This document shows positions 48,842-56,485 of a DNA stretch of 64,000 bases, piece by piece. The notes under the pieces are model-generated. The model made no database searches. It had not been told where the DNA came from and was given only the letters and a program-made list of their open reading frames with translations. A program made the translations under genes and the position numbers. This stretch comes from Oscillospiraceae bacterium (GTDB lineage Bacteria; Bacillota; Clostridia; Saccharofermentanales; Saccharofermentanaceae): assembly GCA_902788505.1 (NCBI GenBank), contig CADAKH010000010.1, positions 62,001-126,000 on the forward strand. Direction: 5' to 3'. Position 1 is the stretch's first letter, and each line of letters opens with the position of its first letter.

Positions 48842-48858
48842 AACTGACGTTGCTTAAC

Positions 48859-48934
48859 GCACCTCTAGCTCAGATGGTAGAGCAACTGACTCTTAATCAG
48901 TGGGCCCAGGGTTCGAGTCCCTGGAGGTGCACCA
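48859..48934 (+). tRNA. tRNA-Lys (anticodon CTT)
   Basis: A 76-base tRNA that folds into a full cloverleaf: acceptor GCACCTC pairs with GAGGTGC, the D arm is GCTC AGATGGTAGA GC, the anticodon arm ACTGA-CTCTTAA-TCAGT gives anticodon CTT, and the T arm contains GGTTCGAGTCC. The 3' CCA is encoded. A consensus promoter precedes it and a terminator follows within seven bases, so it is transcribed alone. Confidence 0.97.
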
Positions 48935-49091: not shown

Positions 49092-49892
49092 TTACTCATC
49101 ATCATCAAGGAATTCCTTGAAGTCATCGAAAGCCTCAGAATCAGATACCATCTTAGCGGTCTTCTTTGCAATGGGCATCTCCTCAGGAGCATCAGGTCTT
49201 GCAGAAGGAGCCTTCTTCTCTGCTGCCTCAGTCTTATCGGCATGAACTTCAGGTTTAACTTCATCCTTAACCTCTGCCTTAACTTCAGCTGTCTCTTTTT
49301 CAGATGTCTCAGGACATGAAGAGATAAGCTTCTCTGCCATCTCCTGAGCAGCTCTCTTGATCTCCTCTTCTTCTCTTGCAGCAGCTTCTCTTTCAGCCTG
49401 TTCTCTGGCTTCCTTCTCCTTTGCAGCCTTTTCTCTGGACTCTTCAAGGAGTCTCTGTTGAAACTGACGACGTTCTTCACGTGCCTTATTCTTTGCATCC
49501 TCTTCAGCCTGAGCCTTCTCGGCTTCCTTCATATCTTCCTCGAGCTGCTTACGCTTCTCTTCATTAAGCTGGGCAATATGAGAAGTCTTAAGGTCGAAAA
49601 TGGATTCAGGAGCCTGAACCGCCTTGCTCATGATCTTATCCATCCTTGCTCTGCTCTCAGCCTTGGACTTCTCTTCATCCTCGGCAACTTTATCACCAAG
49701 CTGCTGTAATTCATTAAGATCACCGGGATTAACTGAAGACGCCACAGTCTGAACAACAGGCTGTAAAGTTATATTTCTGGTCTCAACTTCTCCGACTTCT
49801 GAAATGCTGAAGTCAGAAGCAGCTTCCTGGATCTTTTTGATATCAGGAATCTCGACACCGGGCAGTACTTCATACTTTTTCTCTTCTCTCAT
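49092..49892 (-). CDS. Acidic coiled-coil protein of the TerY-P-like operon
   Basis: A soluble 266-residue protein of unknown family. Residues about 105-190 form a long Glu/Lys/Ala/Arg-rich coiled coil, followed by an acidic Lys/Glu/Val/Pro region and a C-terminal tail ending SEAFDDFKEFLDDDE. This end matches the end of the VWA protein two genes upstream (VELDDFMKFINEDE). It starts seven bases after the PP2C stop. It could be a scaffold or phosphorylation target of the kinase and phosphatase in the operon; that is inference. Confidence 0.72.
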   Translation of the reverse strand: MREEKKYEVLPGVEIPDIKKIQEAASDFSISEVGEVETRNITLQPVVQTVASSVNPGDLNELQQLGDKVAEDEEKSKAESRARMDKIMSKAVQAPESIFDLKTSHIAQLNEEKRKQLEEDMKEAEKAQAEEDAKNKAREERRQFQQRLLEESREKAAKEKEAREQAEREAAAREEEEIKRAAQEMAEKLISSCPETSEKETAEVKAEVKDEVKPEVHADKTEAAEKKAPSARPDAPEEMPIAKKTAKMVSDSEAFDDFKEFLDDDE

Positions 49893-49899
49893 AACACAC

Positions 49900-50973
49900 T
49901 CATCCTTTAAGCGAAAGCACTAATTCAATTGCGCCGATAACACAAAGCACGATACCGGCAATAAGCAAAATAATCGAAATCTTACTGATCCTTGAAGGTT
50001 CCTTTGTCTCCTTCTCTGGTTCCTGTTTTTCAGCAGACACAGTATCCGGAACTTTCTCCGGTTCAGGCTGTGTCTCAACGGTCTCTCCTGCACACTTTGA
50101 AATGATCTCATGCGCTTTTATAAGTTCCGGTTTGATAGCCAGTGACAGTTCCTTGAAAGACTCTGAAGATGAAGCAAACTTTGCCGCTTCACTCTCAAGG
50201 CAGGACGGATCAGGTGCTTTTGTCCCCTCGAAAAGCATTACTCCGAAACTTGCGTCATCACTTACATTGCTTGAACCTACGATATATTTCTGAACTGTTT
50301 CAAGAACGGACTTCTCGCCTTCTTCCCTGCCGGAAGCAAAGGTCTCTGCCATCTTCGCAACAACGGGCTTTACAAGTCCTGCCTCTTCATTGTAAACGCT
50401 GTCCTGAACGCCGTCAGTCATAAGAGCTATTGCGTGAACATCATCAACAGTGGTCTTGAGCAGACGCATATAGTTATCAGCATGCGCTGCCGTAACAAAA
50501 TATGTCTTGCCGTCCTTGTCATTCTGAGGCATAGAAATAGGACTTACACCTGAAGGTGAGATCCTGACGATAAGACCGTCTCCGATGTGACCGATCATCA
50601 TTCTTCTGTCCTTAACTGCAACGAAAAGCAATGTGCAGGAAAGTCTGTCGATAACATCAAGTGTGCGCTCTTCCATAATATCAGCAAAAGCCACACGGAG
50701 TTTTGCCATCAGATATCCTCTGACAGCAGCTTCTCTGTTTTCACTGTACAAAGCATCGAAATGCTCGCAGAGAGTATCTGTAATTACATGGACAGCACAA
50801 TCAGATCCGAATCTTGCATCTGTGTATTGCTTACCGCCGGCACCATCAGCAATACAAACAACGGAAACACCGTTCTTTGTAACAGCAAAAGACGCGTCCT
50901 CACAGGGAGTTCCGCGGTTTACATGTTTATTGCCGATCGTTGTGACCGCTCCGACAGTAATACCCTTATACAT
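49900..50973 (-). CDS. Membrane-anchored PP2C phosphatase of the TerY-P-like operon
   Basis: A 357-residue PP2C-family phosphatase with metal motifs PCEDASFAV, CIADGAGG, HIGDGLIV, LMTDGVQDSVY and SDDASFGVM, so it should be active. A variable acidic linker (about 260-325) leads to a single C-terminal transmembrane helix (about 330-352), placing the catalytic domain in the cytoplasm. It is distinct from Stp at 7289-8035. Its ATG overlaps the VWA stop by one base. PP2C, VWA and kinase genes together match the TerY-P triad. Confidence 0.87.
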   Translation of the reverse strand: MYKGITVGAVTTIGNKHVNRGTPCEDASFAVTKNGVSVVCIADGAGGKQYTDARFGSDCAVHVITDTLCEHFDALYSENREAAVRGYLMAKLRVAFADIMEERTLDVIDRLSCTLLFVAVKDRRMMIGHIGDGLIVRISPSGVSPISMPQNDKDGKTYFVTAAHADNYMRLLKTTVDDVHAIALMTDGVQDSVYNEEAGLVKPVVAKMAETFASGREEGEKSVLETVQKYIVGSSNVSDDASFGVMLFEGTKAPDPSCLESEAAKFASSSESFKELSLAIKPELIKAHEIISKCAGETVETQPEPEKVPDTVSAEKQEPEKETKEPSRISKISIILLIAGIVLCVIGAIELVLSLKG

Positions 50974-51704
50974 TACTCATCCTCGTTAATGAACTTCATG
51001 AAATCATCCAATTCAACAGCCTTGCCCTGAGGCGCAGTGTTGATGTTATAAAGAGCATCATCACTCATACCGGAAGATACGATCGAAGATGAAGAAGAGC
51101 CGAGGAATTCAAAGAGTTTGCCGAAATCTGCCGAGTTAACGGAAATCGGTTCAGCACGCTTAACGGAAAGTCTCTTCAAAAGATCGAGATCGACTCCGTT
51201 ACCGACGCCGATATTAAATACAACGAGTTTATCTTCACGCTCAAGCTCATTACATGCTTCAATAGCACGTTCCATATTCTGTATGGCGTTAGGACCCTGA
51301 GGAGCACCGTCGGTAATAACTACAAGCCAGGGCTGGAAATACTTGATTCCCATCTCCTTATAGCCTTCTTTACGTGCATTCAAAAGTTCCAAAGCAGTAA
51401 GAACGCCTTCACCGATAGGTGTAAGTGTTGTCGATGCTGTGATCTCGGGAATACCCTTCTCCTTGGAGATCTTACCGAAAGGCATAAGGATATCAACTTT
51501 GGAACCGAAAGTGATAATAGCAATATCTGTGGAATTTCTTGTATCGTCATTATTCTTGATCGAGCTGATAAAGTTATTGAGACCCATGTTGAGCTGTCTT
51601 ATCGGGTTGCCCATCATTGAACCGGATGTATCAAGAGCAAAACAAATCGGAAGTCTTCTTCTTGTACTTGTACCAAAATCTGAACTGGAAAAACTATCCG
51701 CCAT
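50973..51704 (-). CDS. VWA-domain protein, TerY-like
   Basis: A 243-residue von Willebrand A protein with an intact metal-ion-dependent adhesion site: DTSGSMMG (DxSxS), the Thr in LTPIGEG and the Asp in ITDGAPQG. It has no signal peptide, so it works inside the cell, like TerY. Its last residues are VELDDFMKFINEDE, matched by the coiled-coil protein at 49092-49892. GGAGG lies six bases before the ATG. It lies between kinase and PP2C genes. Confidence 0.87.
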   Translation of the reverse strand: MADSFSSSDFGTSTRRRLPICFALDTSGSMMGNPIRQLNMGLNNFISSIKNNDDTRNSTDIAIITFGSKVDILMPFGKISKEKGIPEITASTTLTPIGEGVLTALELLNARKEGYKEMGIKYFQPWLVVITDGAPQGPNAIQNMERAIEACNELEREDKLVVFNIGVGNGVDLDLLKRLSVKRAEPISVNSADFGKLFEFLGSSSSSIVSSGMSDDALYNINTAPQGKAVELDDFMKFINEDE

Positions 51705-51766: not shown

Positions 51767-53527
51767 TTAAAACAACCCGAAAAACTTCTTCTTTTTTGCA
51801 GGTTCTTCGATAGGATTACTATTGACCGGAGCAGACGAAGGACGTGACTCATTTAATCCGGTTCCGGAAGGCTTTGCAAAAGGAGAAGGTTCAGGTTCTT
51901 TATCAAAATTCACAGGCCTGTAACTGTTGGCTCCGCCTACACTTGAAGAAACAAATCTGCCTGAGGGAACATTACCGAAAGCCTTTTTCTCGGTCTGGGA
52001 AACAGCTTCAGTATGAGCTTCTCTTGCTTTCTTTGCTTCAAGCTTAGCCTTAAGCTGAGCTCTAACAGCTTCAACATCAACACTTGCCTGCTTATAATTC
52101 TCGCACGGGAAAAGCTTATATGCTTCCGGATCATCATAAACGAAATTCTCAAGATCACGCATATACTCTTCGACAGCCGCACGCCAACATACTGCTTCAT
52201 AAGATTTGCCTTCACGGAAAGTCTTATAGAGCATAATGCGGAGATTCTCAGGGAGATATTCCCAGATATGATCGTAGCCGCCAAGCGGAATATGCTCGGT
52301 ATCTGAATTATCCAATGTATAAGGGAAGTTGCGGTTAACTATCTCTTCTCTTAAAGTCTCAGCGCCCTTTCTGGTTGCATACGGATGAAGTCCGCAGAAA
52401 AGGACCGTGAACACAAGCATTGCAATAGAATAATCCTCATCTTCAAGTGTTCTTACAAAACCTGAGAAATCCCTTCCCCAGAGTCTCGGATCAGTGAATT
52501 CTTCCGTACCGACAGGACAAGGAAGATTGCCGACCTGAACGCTGTCCATATCGATAAGATACTGTGTTGAAGATGTATAGATCAAAGCATTCTTAAGCTG
52601 GATATCACCAGCAATAATGTTATGCATATGGAGATAAAGATACTTACCGATAAGGGAAAGCAGTGTCTCACATACATCAAGTCTGGTCCAGTCGGGAAAG
52701 TTCTCTAGGATAGCATCCGGGCCGTCGAAAACATTGCTTAATGTTGTTCCCTTGCCGATAAACATCGTGTAACCGACCGGAACACCACGGAAATAAAGCA
52801 GATGCTGAGGTGTGCAGAAGCCGTGCGACGTAATGCCGAGTTCTGTAAGTTTCTTGAGCTTAGCCCATCTCAAAGGTGTAATAACGCCCTTGTGATATAT
52901 CTTTGCAACATACTTCGGATTGCTGGTGGTAAATACCATACCCTCAGCACCGCCGCTGAGTCGCTTCTCGAGAACAAATTTATCACCTTCAGTGGAAATT
53001 ACGATATCATCAATACTTGCTCTGCCGTCTGAATCAATGAATGTATTGTTTCCGGCAAGCCCGCTAATCGAAGGCAAAGGATATGTCTCGATTAGTTCAG
53101 CAACCGAATGGAATATCTTAACGCCCGTGTTAGTAACAATTGCTACATCGCCATTAAACTCAGGCGCCTTCTCATATAATCTCTTGGTAAATATTCCGGT
53201 TTTGGTAGTGAGAATGCAGCATTCAGGAAGGTCTTTTACCTGTTCGATAAAATACTCAGTATTGCATGTATGAACAACATGAAGAGTGTTTGTAGACATC
53301 AGACTCTGCATAAGAGATCTGATCGCATTCTGAACATGATAGTCTTTGGGATCCTGCTGCTGAACTACACACTTGTGAAGAATCTTAAAGGTATCATCGA
53401 TATAACAATCGATTCCCTTATCTTCTACCAGGTTGGTTAATTCATCAAACCATACTCCGTTTGAATACTCCAAAACAACGGAGTAATCAAGCACTATCGA
53501 CAGATACTTGCTGAGTCCTTCGAACAT
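51767..53527 (-). CDS. Atypical protein kinase of the TerY-P-like operon
   Basis: A 586-residue soluble protein. Residues 1-180 form an uncharacterised domain. A kinase fold follows: glycine loop LSGGAEGMVF, Lys in YVAKIY, catalytic IIAGDIQLKNAL (HRD changed to AGD but Asp and Asn kept) and LIDMDSV in place of DFG. This pattern fits the TerY-associated kinase group. The C-terminal 130 residues are low-complexity (Lys/Ala/Glu then Ser/Pro) and end in KKKKFFGLF, a basic-aromatic tail that could touch membrane. It heads the operon with its own promoter. Confidence 0.8.
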   Translation of the reverse strand: MFEGLSKYLSIVLDYSVVLEYSNGVWFDELTNLVEDKGIDCYIDDTFKILHKCVVQQQDPKDYHVQNAIRSLMQSLMSTNTLHVVHTCNTEYFIEQVKDLPECCILTTKTGIFTKRLYEKAPEFNGDVAIVTNTGVKIFHSVAELIETYPLPSISGLAGNNTFIDSDGRASIDDIVISTEGDKFVLEKRLSGGAEGMVFTTSNPKYVAKIYHKGVITPLRWAKLKKLTELGITSHGFCTPQHLLYFRGVPVGYTMFIGKGTTLSNVFDGPDAILENFPDWTRLDVCETLLSLIGKYLYLHMHNIIAGDIQLKNALIYTSSTQYLIDMDSVQVGNLPCPVGTEEFTDPRLWGRDFSGFVRTLEDEDYSIAMLVFTVLFCGLHPYATRKGAETLREEIVNRNFPYTLDNSDTEHIPLGGYDHIWEYLPENLRIMLYKTFREGKSYEAVCWRAAVEEYMRDLENFVYDDPEAYKLFPCENYKQASVDVEAVRAQLKAKLEAKKAREAHTEAVSQTEKKAFGNVPSGRFVSSSVGGANSYRPVNFDKEPEPSPFAKPSGTGLNESRPSSAPVNSNPIEEPAKKKKFFGLF

Positions 53528-53664: not shown

Positions 53665-55527
53665 TCAGCCGATTCCGACGAGTTTCATTAGATATTTAGC
53701 ATTAGATTCCCTGCTGATGCCAGATTTCAATACATAATCGAAGGTTATACCCGTGTCGGTATAGAATTCGGAGAAATGGTAATACCTGATATTGTTGAAG
53801 TCTTCAGTAGTCTTATCGATCATTGCATAATCATGAGTAGTCATAAGACCGCAGATATATGGCCTTGAGAGCTTTCTTAAGACTGTAAGAGCACCCTCTG
53901 TTCTGTCATCTGAATTGGTACCTCTGAAGATCTCGTCGATGAGGAAAAGCAAAGGCCTGTTATCCCCTGCAGCTTTGACGATACCGGATATTCTTATAAG
54001 TTCAGCCTTAAAGGTGCTCATGTTCTCCTCAAGGCTGTCAACAATCCGCATCGAACTCATGATCCTCATACGGCCGAGCTTAAGTCCGGTTGCAGGAACA
54101 AGTCCGCCGGTCATTGCAAGAACCGTGCACACACCAACAGTCCTGATAAGAGTTGTCTTACCGGACATATTTGATCCTGTGATTATTGCTATATCCTTAT
54201 CGATCTTAACCGAATTGCTGACAACCGTCTCATGCTCCAAAAGCGGATGAGAGAGATCTTTGCCGTCGAAAAATGCGTTTTGATCAGCATCATCAGATTC
54301 AACAAATTCAGGGAAGGAACTCTGAGGCAGGACAAGACCGGTCTGAGCAGCACACATCAATGCTTCAAGCTCAGCCAGCTTATCAATGTATGAAGGAAAT
54401 TCCTTGCCGTATTTAACAGCCCAATTACCCATAAGATATGAGATCAGGAAATCCAGAGGAGCAATTGCATTCAGTATCAGTGCAAATAGGGGCTGGCTTC
54501 TTAATGCAGCAAGTCTTAAAACAGAATTCAGTTCCTTTAATAATTCAGAAGCACTCTTGGACTTGTCTTCACCTTTTATCAGTGAAACGACAAGTTCATT
54601 TTCAAAGCCGCTGTTTTCGAGGATTGAATAAAGTCTCAATATCGTTCTGACCTGGTTAGGCATTCCTTCACAGGCTTTGATATAAGGTTCGTTAAACGCA
54701 CGTCCGGCTATCCAGAGAATGAAATTGATGATCAGGCATGTCAGTATCATCGCGGTTCCGTATTCCGGGAACAGAATAAATGCAAAAGGAACGGAAAGCC
54801 AGATTGCAATTCCTATTATTGCCATAACATTTGCTGCAGTCTTTGTTTTCGATCCGCCGGCAGCAAATTCAAGCAGTATCTTGGGATCTTTGATCATCTT
54901 TCCTGCTCTTGCAGTTGCCTGATAATCCATGAGTACATCAGGCTTTGAGCAAAGCTCAGAAACTGCCGCCTGCTTAACTTTCAATTCTTCGGAAGTAAAA
55001 CCCGATACATGGCCGTTCAAAAGACTTCCGGCAAATCTTCTTCTTCCGAAAGAAGTCTCTGAAACATTGAAAAGCGAGAATAAGGATTTCTTACCGAAAA
55101 TATCAAGATCTGCGCAGTAATCGTGTTCCGGCACATCAAACTCTTTGCCATACAGCCTGTTCTTGGCAGCACCTATATCTTCTGCTCTCTTAAGACCTTT
55201 TACGGCAATATTCCGAAGTTCATTAAAGTCGCCTTTTATCCTTGCGATATAGGATAAATTGACCTTGGAAAGTTCATTGAGATAATTGACCCTGTCGATG
55301 ATCTTACCGTGAACTATGCAAAGGATAACAAACAGTGAAAAAACCAGACCGGCAACAATATAGAGGACAGGCATCTTGCCTGCATATCCTGCAATGATAA
55401 GTGCAACAGTTCCAAAGAAAGAAACAAATCTCAAAAATGACAAAATGCCGCTCTGCCTTTGATATTTGGCAAGATCGGCAATTATCTTCTGAGACTTATC
55501 TTCGTAGAACTTAAGATTTGCTTTCAT
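53665..55527 (-). CDS. Membrane-associated MutS-like ATPase
   Basis: A 620-residue protein that has only the C-terminal half of MutS: lever and clamp helices, then an ABC-type ATPase with Walker A TGSNMSGKTTL (450-460), the DSLEENMSTFKAEL segment, Walker B LLFLIDEIFRGTNS and the TTHDY switch. It has no mismatch-binding domain. Four predicted transmembrane helices (about 26-46, 52-73, 231-252, 257-275) tie it to the membrane. It starts at 55527, inside the 3' end of sir2. Its role is unknown; DNA mismatch repair is unlikely. Confidence 0.82.
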   Translation of the reverse strand: MKANLKFYEDKSQKIIADLAKYQRQSGILSFLRFVSFFGTVALIIAGYAGKMPVLYIVAGLVFSLFVILCIVHGKIIDRVNYLNELSKVNLSYIARIKGDFNELRNIAVKGLKRAEDIGAAKNRLYGKEFDVPEHDYCADLDIFGKKSLFSLFNVSETSFGRRRFAGSLLNGHVSGFTSEELKVKQAAVSELCSKPDVLMDYQATARAGKMIKDPKILLEFAAGGSKTKTAANVMAIIGIAIWLSVPFAFILFPEYGTAMILTCLIINFILWIAGRAFNEPYIKACEGMPNQVRTILRLYSILENSGFENELVVSLIKGEDKSKSASELLKELNSVLRLAALRSQPLFALILNAIAPLDFLISYLMGNWAVKYGKEFPSYIDKLAELEALMCAAQTGLVLPQSSFPEFVESDDADQNAFFDGKDLSHPLLEHETVVSNSVKIDKDIAIITGSNMSGKTTLIRTVGVCTVLAMTGGLVPATGLKLGRMRIMSSMRIVDSLEENMSTFKAELIRISGIVKAAGDNRPLLFLIDEIFRGTNSDDRTEGALTVLRKLSRPYICGLMTTHDYAMIDKTTEDFNNIRYYHFSEFYTDTGITFDYVLKSGISRESNAKYLMKLVGIG

Positions 55528-56485
55528 CCTTCTTCGCCTTAGAAGATGCAGGCTTCTTTGAAGCAGCGGCAGAAGGTTTCTTTGCCGGAGCCTTCTTCGA
55601 AGAAGTCTTTGAATCTGCTTTGGCAGTCTCCTTCTTTGCTGTTGTGGTATTTGAAGCCGTCTTCCTGGCAGTGGTCTTCTTTGATGAAGATTTGGAAACC
55701 GAATTCTTTCTGGATACTCTCTTCGGAACACACTTATCCAATACATCACCGACATTATCGTGAATCGTAAGGAGTGCCTTGAGATCCATATAAGTAGAAC
55801 TCTTATTGATGATTACTATTCTGTCATGCTTCAGGAACTGTGCAAATGTTGCCGCAGGATAAACAGTAAGTGATGTTCCCGCAATGATCATGAGATCACA
55901 TTTTTTAACAGCCTTGATAGCATTATCAACATTCTCATGCTCAAGATTCTCTTCATAGAGAACGATGTCCGGCCTTACAATGCCGCCGCAGCGGTCACAG
56001 TGAGGAACACCTTCCTGAGCTGCAATATATTCGATATTGAACTTCTTGCCGCAGTCCATGCAGTAATTCCTGAACACTGAACCGTGAAGTTCGATAACGC
56101 ACTTGCTTCCGGCTTCCTGATGAAGATTGTCGATATTCTGGGTAATGATCGCCTTAAGCTTGCCCTGTCTCTCAAGTCTTACCAAAGCCTTGTGAGCCTT
56201 ATTGGGCCTTGCATCAGGATATATAAGCTTACGCTTGTAAAAGTCATAGAAATCTTCAGGATGCTCAATAAAGAAGTCGTGGGCAATGATATCGATCGGT
56301 CTGTACTTCGTTCCGCTCTCAGTGTTGTAGATACCGGCTCCGCTTCTGAAGTCAGGAATTCCGCTCTCAGTGGATACACCTGCACCGCCGAGAAAAACAA
56401 TATTGTTGGACTCAGCAATCAGCTCTTTAAGCTGCTTGATTTTGTCCTCACGAACACTGCCGAATCTGTCAATTCTCGTCTCCAC
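55511..56485 (-). CDS. cobB: Sir2-family NAD-dependent deacetylase with a histone H1-like tail
   Basis: A sirtuin (324 residues) that removes acyl groups from lysines using NAD. It has the NAD site GAGVSTESGIPDFRS, TQNIDNLHQEAG, the catalytic His in ELHGS, four zinc Cys (CMDC and CDRC) and GTSLTVYPAA. Residues 258-324 are an added tail of Lys, Ala, Ser and Thr (KKAPAKKPSAAASKK and similar) like histone H1 or bacterial HU-like tails, absent from typical CobB. It lies between a PH-domain gene and the MutS-like gene and overlaps the latter by 17 bases. Confidence 0.93.
   Translation of the reverse strand: METRIDRFGSVREDKIKQLKELIAESNNIVFLGGAGVSTESGIPDFRSGAGIYNTESGTKYRPIDIIAHDFFIEHPEDFYDFYKRKLIYPDARPNKAHKALVRLERQGKLKAIITQNIDNLHQEAGSKCVIELHGSVFRNYCMDCGKKFNIEYIAAQEGVPHCDRCGGIVRPDIVLYEENLEHENVDNAIKAVKKCDLMIIAGTSLTVYPAATFAQFLKHDRIVIINKSSTYMDLKALLTIHDNVGDVLDKCVPKRVSRKNSVSKSSSKKTTARKTASNTTTAKKETAKADSKTSSKKAPAKKPSAAASKKPASSKAKKDESKS

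Follow-up and report, generated by a model that had tools for sequence, protein, structure and literature searches.

Organization of the locus

The window analyzed here, a stretch of 64,000 nucleotides, carries on its minus strand an operon of four genes in the order kinase (586 aa, 53527..51767), VWA protein (243 aa, 51704..50973), PP2C phosphatase (357 aa, 50973..49900), and coiled-coil (CC) protein (266 aa, 49892..49092). The VWA protein (PF00092, E 5.4e-15) is YegL-like, with 33% identity to E. coli YegL (E 2e-33), and keeps the MIDAS residues (DxSxS...T...D), D25, S27, S29, T95, and D132 being invariant; the phosphatase is recognized by PF13672 (E 5.7e-34). The CC protein of the window matches no Pfam family, and the alignment of its relatives reveals a conserved N-terminus followed by a charged middle that varies in length and sequence.

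The AF2 model of the kinase, with pLDDT values mostly of 80-97 over residues 1-500, comprises an N-terminal alpha/beta domain of PIN-like appearance (about 1-150), a Ser/Thr-type kinase domain (about 180-480), and a disordered tail. The kinase fold was assigned by Foldseek (PknB, 5u94, E 2.4e-9), the Pfam Pkinase model matches 17 of 38 relatives, and the catalytic residues K209, D308, N313, and D326 are invariant. The likeness of the N-terminal domain to a PIN domain is suggestive and lies in the order of the modeled elements alone: Pfam gives no PIN match for this domain in the window kinase, and a profile comparison with the PIN region of the kinase at another kinase/VWA/PP2C locus (L274) returned a probability of 0.1%.

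The phosphatase carries a C-terminal TM-like hydrophobic segment (about 49915-49980), which hydropathy shows in all loci examined. At the C-terminus of the kinase lies a basic-aromatic tail, KKKKFFGLF (51770..51796, minus strand; the same or similar in the rest of the genus), which the tails of relatives and their hydropathy mark as a probable membrane anchor. Hydropathy at this end is TM-like (2.7-3.4) in 14 of the 16 sister-genus kinases (L244-L259) versus a median of -0.14 in the genus of the window, and since the sister genera have a TM helix at the same end, KKKKFFGLF is probably an alternative anchor. In keeping with such probable membrane ends, E. coli YegI has been reported to be a Ser/Thr kinase bound to the membrane and to be dephosphorylated by PphC (PMC13232886).

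The immediate neighbors of the operon are housekeeping genes (MutS-like, Sir2, and Ruv). The gene order Sir2, MutS-like, kinase, VWA, PP2C, CC is stable in most of the genus, which argues for vertical inheritance of the operon rather than for a mobile island, and PP2C stays beside VWA in nearly all relatives. Some loci have an extra gene before the kinase, diaminopimelate-decarboxylase-like where it was read (L123, L246, and L248). In one genome (G053, L078:4172-9801), a six-ORF cassette encoding a response regulator, a histidine kinase, a small protein, two membrane proteins, and an ABC ATPase sits between the VWA and PP2C genes, and in another (G018, L124) the VWA gene is read as two overlapping frames, either from an assembly error or from a frameshift. 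Around the operon of the window, the Sir2 protein (55511-56485) has a long lysine/alanine-rich tail with a weak match to the histone H1-like HC2 model (E 2e-4), and a tRNA-like sequence, tRNA-Lys by eye, lies at 48858-48932 between an oxidoreductase gene and the operon.

Two proteins with similar C-terminal tails

A first-pass annotation of the locus had noticed that the VWA and CC proteins end alike. Read directly from the DNA, the VWA protein ends in ...VELDDFMKFINEDE and the CC protein in ...EAFDDFKEFLDDDE, just as it had stated. The putative docking tails are LDDFMKFINEDE in the VWA protein (50976..51011, minus strand) and FDDFKEFLDDDE in the CC protein (49095..49130, minus strand). Directly ahead of the latter lies a Ser/Thr-containing patch (49131..49145, minus strand), which is SDSEA here and S/T-D-E-E-T in most relatives.

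In sequence logos, the VWA tail reads P-x-G-x-[AS]-V-x-V-D-D-F-[MF]-K-F-[IML]-x-E and the CC tail [ST]-D-E-E-T-phi-D-D-F-[SK]-E-F-L-D-D, the latter with S/T at -8 in 70 of 77 and T at -4 in 61 of 77 sequences; the window CC protein has Ala at -4. Both logos have in common the hydrophobic positions -3, 0, +3, and +4 together with the DD pair. The pattern [LF]DDFxxFxxxDE first proposed thus holds for its core, phi-D-D-F-x-x-F-phi, the final DE not being conserved. As judged from the alignments, the two tails are alike but not identical: position +2 differs systematically, with K in 66 of 80 VWA proteins and E or D in 77 of 77 anchored CC proteins, a count on which the anchor of the CC logo, itself F-x-[DE]-F, has a bearing (one further CC protein, L082, has FMAF). 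Both tails are strongly acidic, with median net charges of -5 (16 residues) and -6 (20 residues), and span no more than about three turns of helix. AF2 modeling of the VWA protein (38 sequences, mean pLDDT 78.5) yields the VWA fold, a disordered segment (225-232), and a low-confidence helix (232-241) that shows no confident docking onto the protein's own VWA domain; this would be the appearance expected of an undocked recognition helix and is not evidence of a partner.

Conservation and specificity of the motif

The genus consists mostly of rumen and gut Clostridia, with named records largely under 'Saccharofermentans', 'Mageeibacillus', 'Clostridiales', or 'Ruminococcaceae'. Of its 70 genomes, about 64 yielded the VWA protein and 63 the CC protein, several of the genomes without a match being incomplete. 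In the 61 operons read (the window and 60 relatives, L065-L124), DDFxx[FY] occurs within the last 16 residues of every VWA protein (61/61), and FxxF is present near the C-terminus of every CC protein (61/61), within the last 16 residues in 58 of them; the strict form [DE][DE]FxxF is found in the last 20 residues of 43 of the 61 CC proteins. In the three remaining CC proteins the motif is internal, followed by an extension of about 20 residues in L098 and by longer ones in L099 and L102 (EFGDFVD/EFGEFID). The earlier placement of the motif at the very end of each chain therefore has to be relaxed, and a PDZ- or degron-like tag read at the free chain end does not fit a motif that is not always terminal. 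One long CC protein (L121) has additional internal FDDF-like copies (FDDFITEV, FEDLISG, and IEDFFASL) beside its tail.

With shuffled tails the motif is met at rates of 0.54% (VWA) and 0.25% (CC), and it is found in the last 20 residues of none of the 633 other ORFs of the same loci. A matrix built from the VWA tails places the best window of the median CC protein 13th against 228,086 windows of these 633 other proteins, and the best CC window falls in the last 20 residues for 50 of the 61 CC proteins. In the genome of the window (2.57 Mb), DNA encoding [LF]DDFxxF occurs four times and the reversed control pattern never; two of the four matches are the VWA and CC tails, a third falls at the N-terminus of a MurD-like protein, and the fourth lies in a frame with no evident gene. 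No convincing third protein ending in the motif was found in the genomes examined: in three relatives (G005, G007, and G011), the in-frame C-terminal matches that were checked, among the matches listed, proved to be short frames with no convincing gene behind them.

The motif is short and had been spotted by eye, which speaks for a chance resemblance, and the first-pass annotation had itself regarded the match as chance if homologous VWA and CC proteins did not keep it. They do keep it across the 61 operons, and conservation and shuffle controls together refute chance within the genus, leaving this explanation a negligible probability. Moreover, F258 and F261 are invariant in the CC alignment, and the retention of the CC tail while the rest of the protein drifts identifies a selected linear motif. 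On these sequence comparisons, the resemblance of the tails is real and selected, and the short linear motif first suspected behaves as one, belonging to a dedicated VWA/CC pair.

Origin of the two tails

Related VWA ends are found far outside the genus. The VWA tail includes a segment, PQGKAVEL (51009..51032, minus strand), that corresponds in the alignment and in the tails of relatives to the G-x-x-V-x-L segment of YegL and TerY. VWA proteins of the YegL/TerY type encoded in E. coli, Deinococcus, Pseudomonas, a cyanobacterium, Photobacterium, Fusobacterium, other Bacillota, and Ter plasmids carry a related segment at their C-terminus, typically (P)G-x-x-[VI]-x-L, which in most of them is followed by an aromatic residue, often KGW-like (L302:3470-4129, L314-L326, L274, and L291). 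A pattern of the G-x-x-V-x-L type, chosen post hoc, is present in 19 of 21 tails (three of them from this family, and the sequences partly related to one another) against an average of 4 in shuffled tails. The YegL/TerY loci of other phyla encode the VWA protein and PP2C, usually with the kinase, and no CC gene was seen in them. From these sequences, the VWA tail looks ancestral to the YegL/TerY triads and the CC protein looks like a local addition, which points to a core subunit as the reader of the tail. At locus L274, a helix-turn-helix (HTH) protein encoded upstream of the triad (G372, L274:2050-3015) ends in TAGLKGWESID, resembling two VWA tails there (GIKGWGEL and GIKGWAEL); this single instance is possibly a second case of tail sharing. 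No close relatives of the YegL-like VWA protein of L274 were found in viral contigs.

Within the family, the VWA tail is present in all five genera, and the CC protein is without the tail in three of them, which makes a core subunit, rather than the CC protein, the expected partner. The VWA proteins of these three sister genera (g27-g29) retain the tail, as DEFFKYLE or DDFFKYLE, and the CC homolog is short (about 117-139 residues) and tail-less; in g30, the VWA protein has mostly DDFFKAI (EDFFRTI in some) and the CC protein mostly DDDFLDF. The CC tail is thus found in two of the three family branches only, alongside the older VWA tail. In a tree of the three core proteins, g1, g30, and g27-29 form well-supported groups, three in all; the root between them is not fixed, so that the CC tail may have been either gained or lost.

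A proposed docking model and its alternatives

We favor, as somewhat more likely than not, a model in which the tails are docking peptides for one core subunit of a membrane-bound switch, most likely the kinase, with the CC protein as an added subunit that copies the tail. The operon would encode a kinase/phosphatase switch of the YegI-PphC-YegL kind, with the kinase and PP2C held at the membrane and the VWA and CC proteins soluble. Each tail would form a short amphipathic helix, acidic and aromatic, tethered by a flexible linker, and both would fit into a single groove on one of the core subunits; the kinase is the likeliest, ahead of PP2C and the VWA domain. Of the two, the VWA tail would be the ancestral ligand, and the CC protein a lineage-specific subunit whose copy of the VWA end recruits it to, or lets it compete for, the same site; it may be the regulator of the switch, a substrate scaffold, a substrate, or a competitor. 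Once docked, the S/T-D-E-E-T patch ahead of the CC motif could be phosphorylated (the window CC protein has SDSEA). The common partner proposed at the outset, perhaps the kinase or phosphatase, accordingly gains from the pattern among relatives, which points inside the kinase/VWA/PP2C core; as to which member it is, we infer rather than observe. Several observations weigh against the model: in every core subunit the globular part has a net acidic charge, so that none offers itself as an obviously basic partner; the VWA tail does not dock with confidence onto its own domain; the CC tail may have been lost in some branches rather than gained in others; and the systematic difference at +2 means that the pockets for the two tails may differ.

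That same difference lends some appeal to another explanation, in which the tails would instead bind one another or attach to the VWA domain and the two proteins assemble without a separate common partner, since K in one tail could pair with E or D in the other. VWA domains also commonly bind ligands at the MIDAS through an acidic residue. We nevertheless consider such an assembly rather unlikely, for both tails are strongly acidic over their three or so helical turns and the VWA tail is conserved where the CC protein has none. Attraction of opposite charges has also been considered for the kinase's own tail: KKKKFFGLF could receive the acidic-aromatic tails by virtue of its charge and aromatic content, and the genus conserves each of the three tails, but the sister genera have a TM helix in its place and still keep the VWA tail, which makes this pairing very improbable.

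If the tails served the kinase as sites of phosphorylation or as tags on its substrates, the S/T at -8 and the T at -4 that CC proteins conserve, set in an acidic context right before the motif, would suit that role. The idea of a substrate tag, raised in the first-pass annotation, finds no support for the VWA tail of the window, as LDDFMKFINEDE contains no Ser, Thr, or Tyr; T(-4) is Ala in the window CC protein, and what is conserved at the core is D-D-F-x-x-F, so that we regard this explanation as improbable. We give equally little weight to a generic tail for turnover or solubility that two co-expressed proteins would share independently of the triad. Many bacterial proteins do have short acidic C-termini, but here the F-x-x-F spacing is conserved, neither the 633 neighbors nor the genomes examined supply a convincing third bearer, and in three CC proteins the motif lies inside the chain.

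Extended beyond this family, the docking model would imply that signaling by VWA proteins of the YegL/TerY type generally proceeds through docking of the tail into the triad kinase (or phosphatase), and that the CC protein is a tail-mimicking competitor that sets the switch; we put this forward as a tentative proposal, of lower probability than the model for the operon itself. How the VWA protein is coupled to the kinase and the phosphatase in YegI and TerY-P triads appears unsettled in the sources found, and a short tail that the VWA protein conserves and a second subunit copies offers a concrete and cheap handle on which core protein reads it.

Comparison with known triads

This chromosomal operon is related to the kinase-PP2C-VWA triads represented by E. 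coli YegI/PphC/YegL and by TerY-P. With the TerY-P triad (TerY VWA, PP2C, and kinase) it shares the three protein classes in one operon, and TerY tails have a V/I-x-(G)-L segment in common with the window VWA protein. In TerY-P systems, however, the C-terminus of the kinase is fused to a zinc ribbon or OB-fold (PMC11090510). Pfam detects neither at the C-terminus of the window kinase, whose residues 511-586 are predicted to be disordered. Unlike TerY-P, the operon stands in a stable housekeeping neighborhood; its immediate neighbors include no Ter or restriction/defense genes, and PADLOC gives no match for the four proteins. As neither the fusion nor, next to the operon, the Ter/defense setting was found, we do not assign the operon to TerY-P in the sense of PMC11090510.

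Other Bacillota and Fusobacterium loci (L274, L291, and L320-L323) likewise have the kinase, VWA, and PP2C genes in line and a VWA tail of the form PGESVKLDVEGIKGWGEL, and in L274 and L291 a domain precedes the kinase domain as well. They differ from the window in that no CC gene was seen, and L274 further in that it adjoins restriction-modification genes and that Pfam PIN_4 is recognized in its kinase but not in that of the window.

The E. coli triad of YegI, PphC (YegK), and YegL also has neighboring VWA, PP2C, and kinase genes, and YegL ends in a related tail, PGTEVVLEAPKGW, which contains KGWxxV where the window VWA tail ends in DDFxxF. To this arrangement the window operon adds a fourth gene, that of the CC protein with its VWA-like tail, and a PIN-like domain at the N-terminus of the kinase. 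With a YegL-type VWA protein keeping its MIDAS, an adjacent PP2C, and an adjacent kinase with its catalytic residues, we classify the operon, by analogy, as one that would work like the YegI-PphC-YegL triad, and since the segment of the VWA tail is met again in YegL/TerY proteins from several phyla, a result obtained on E. coli YegL could carry over to them.
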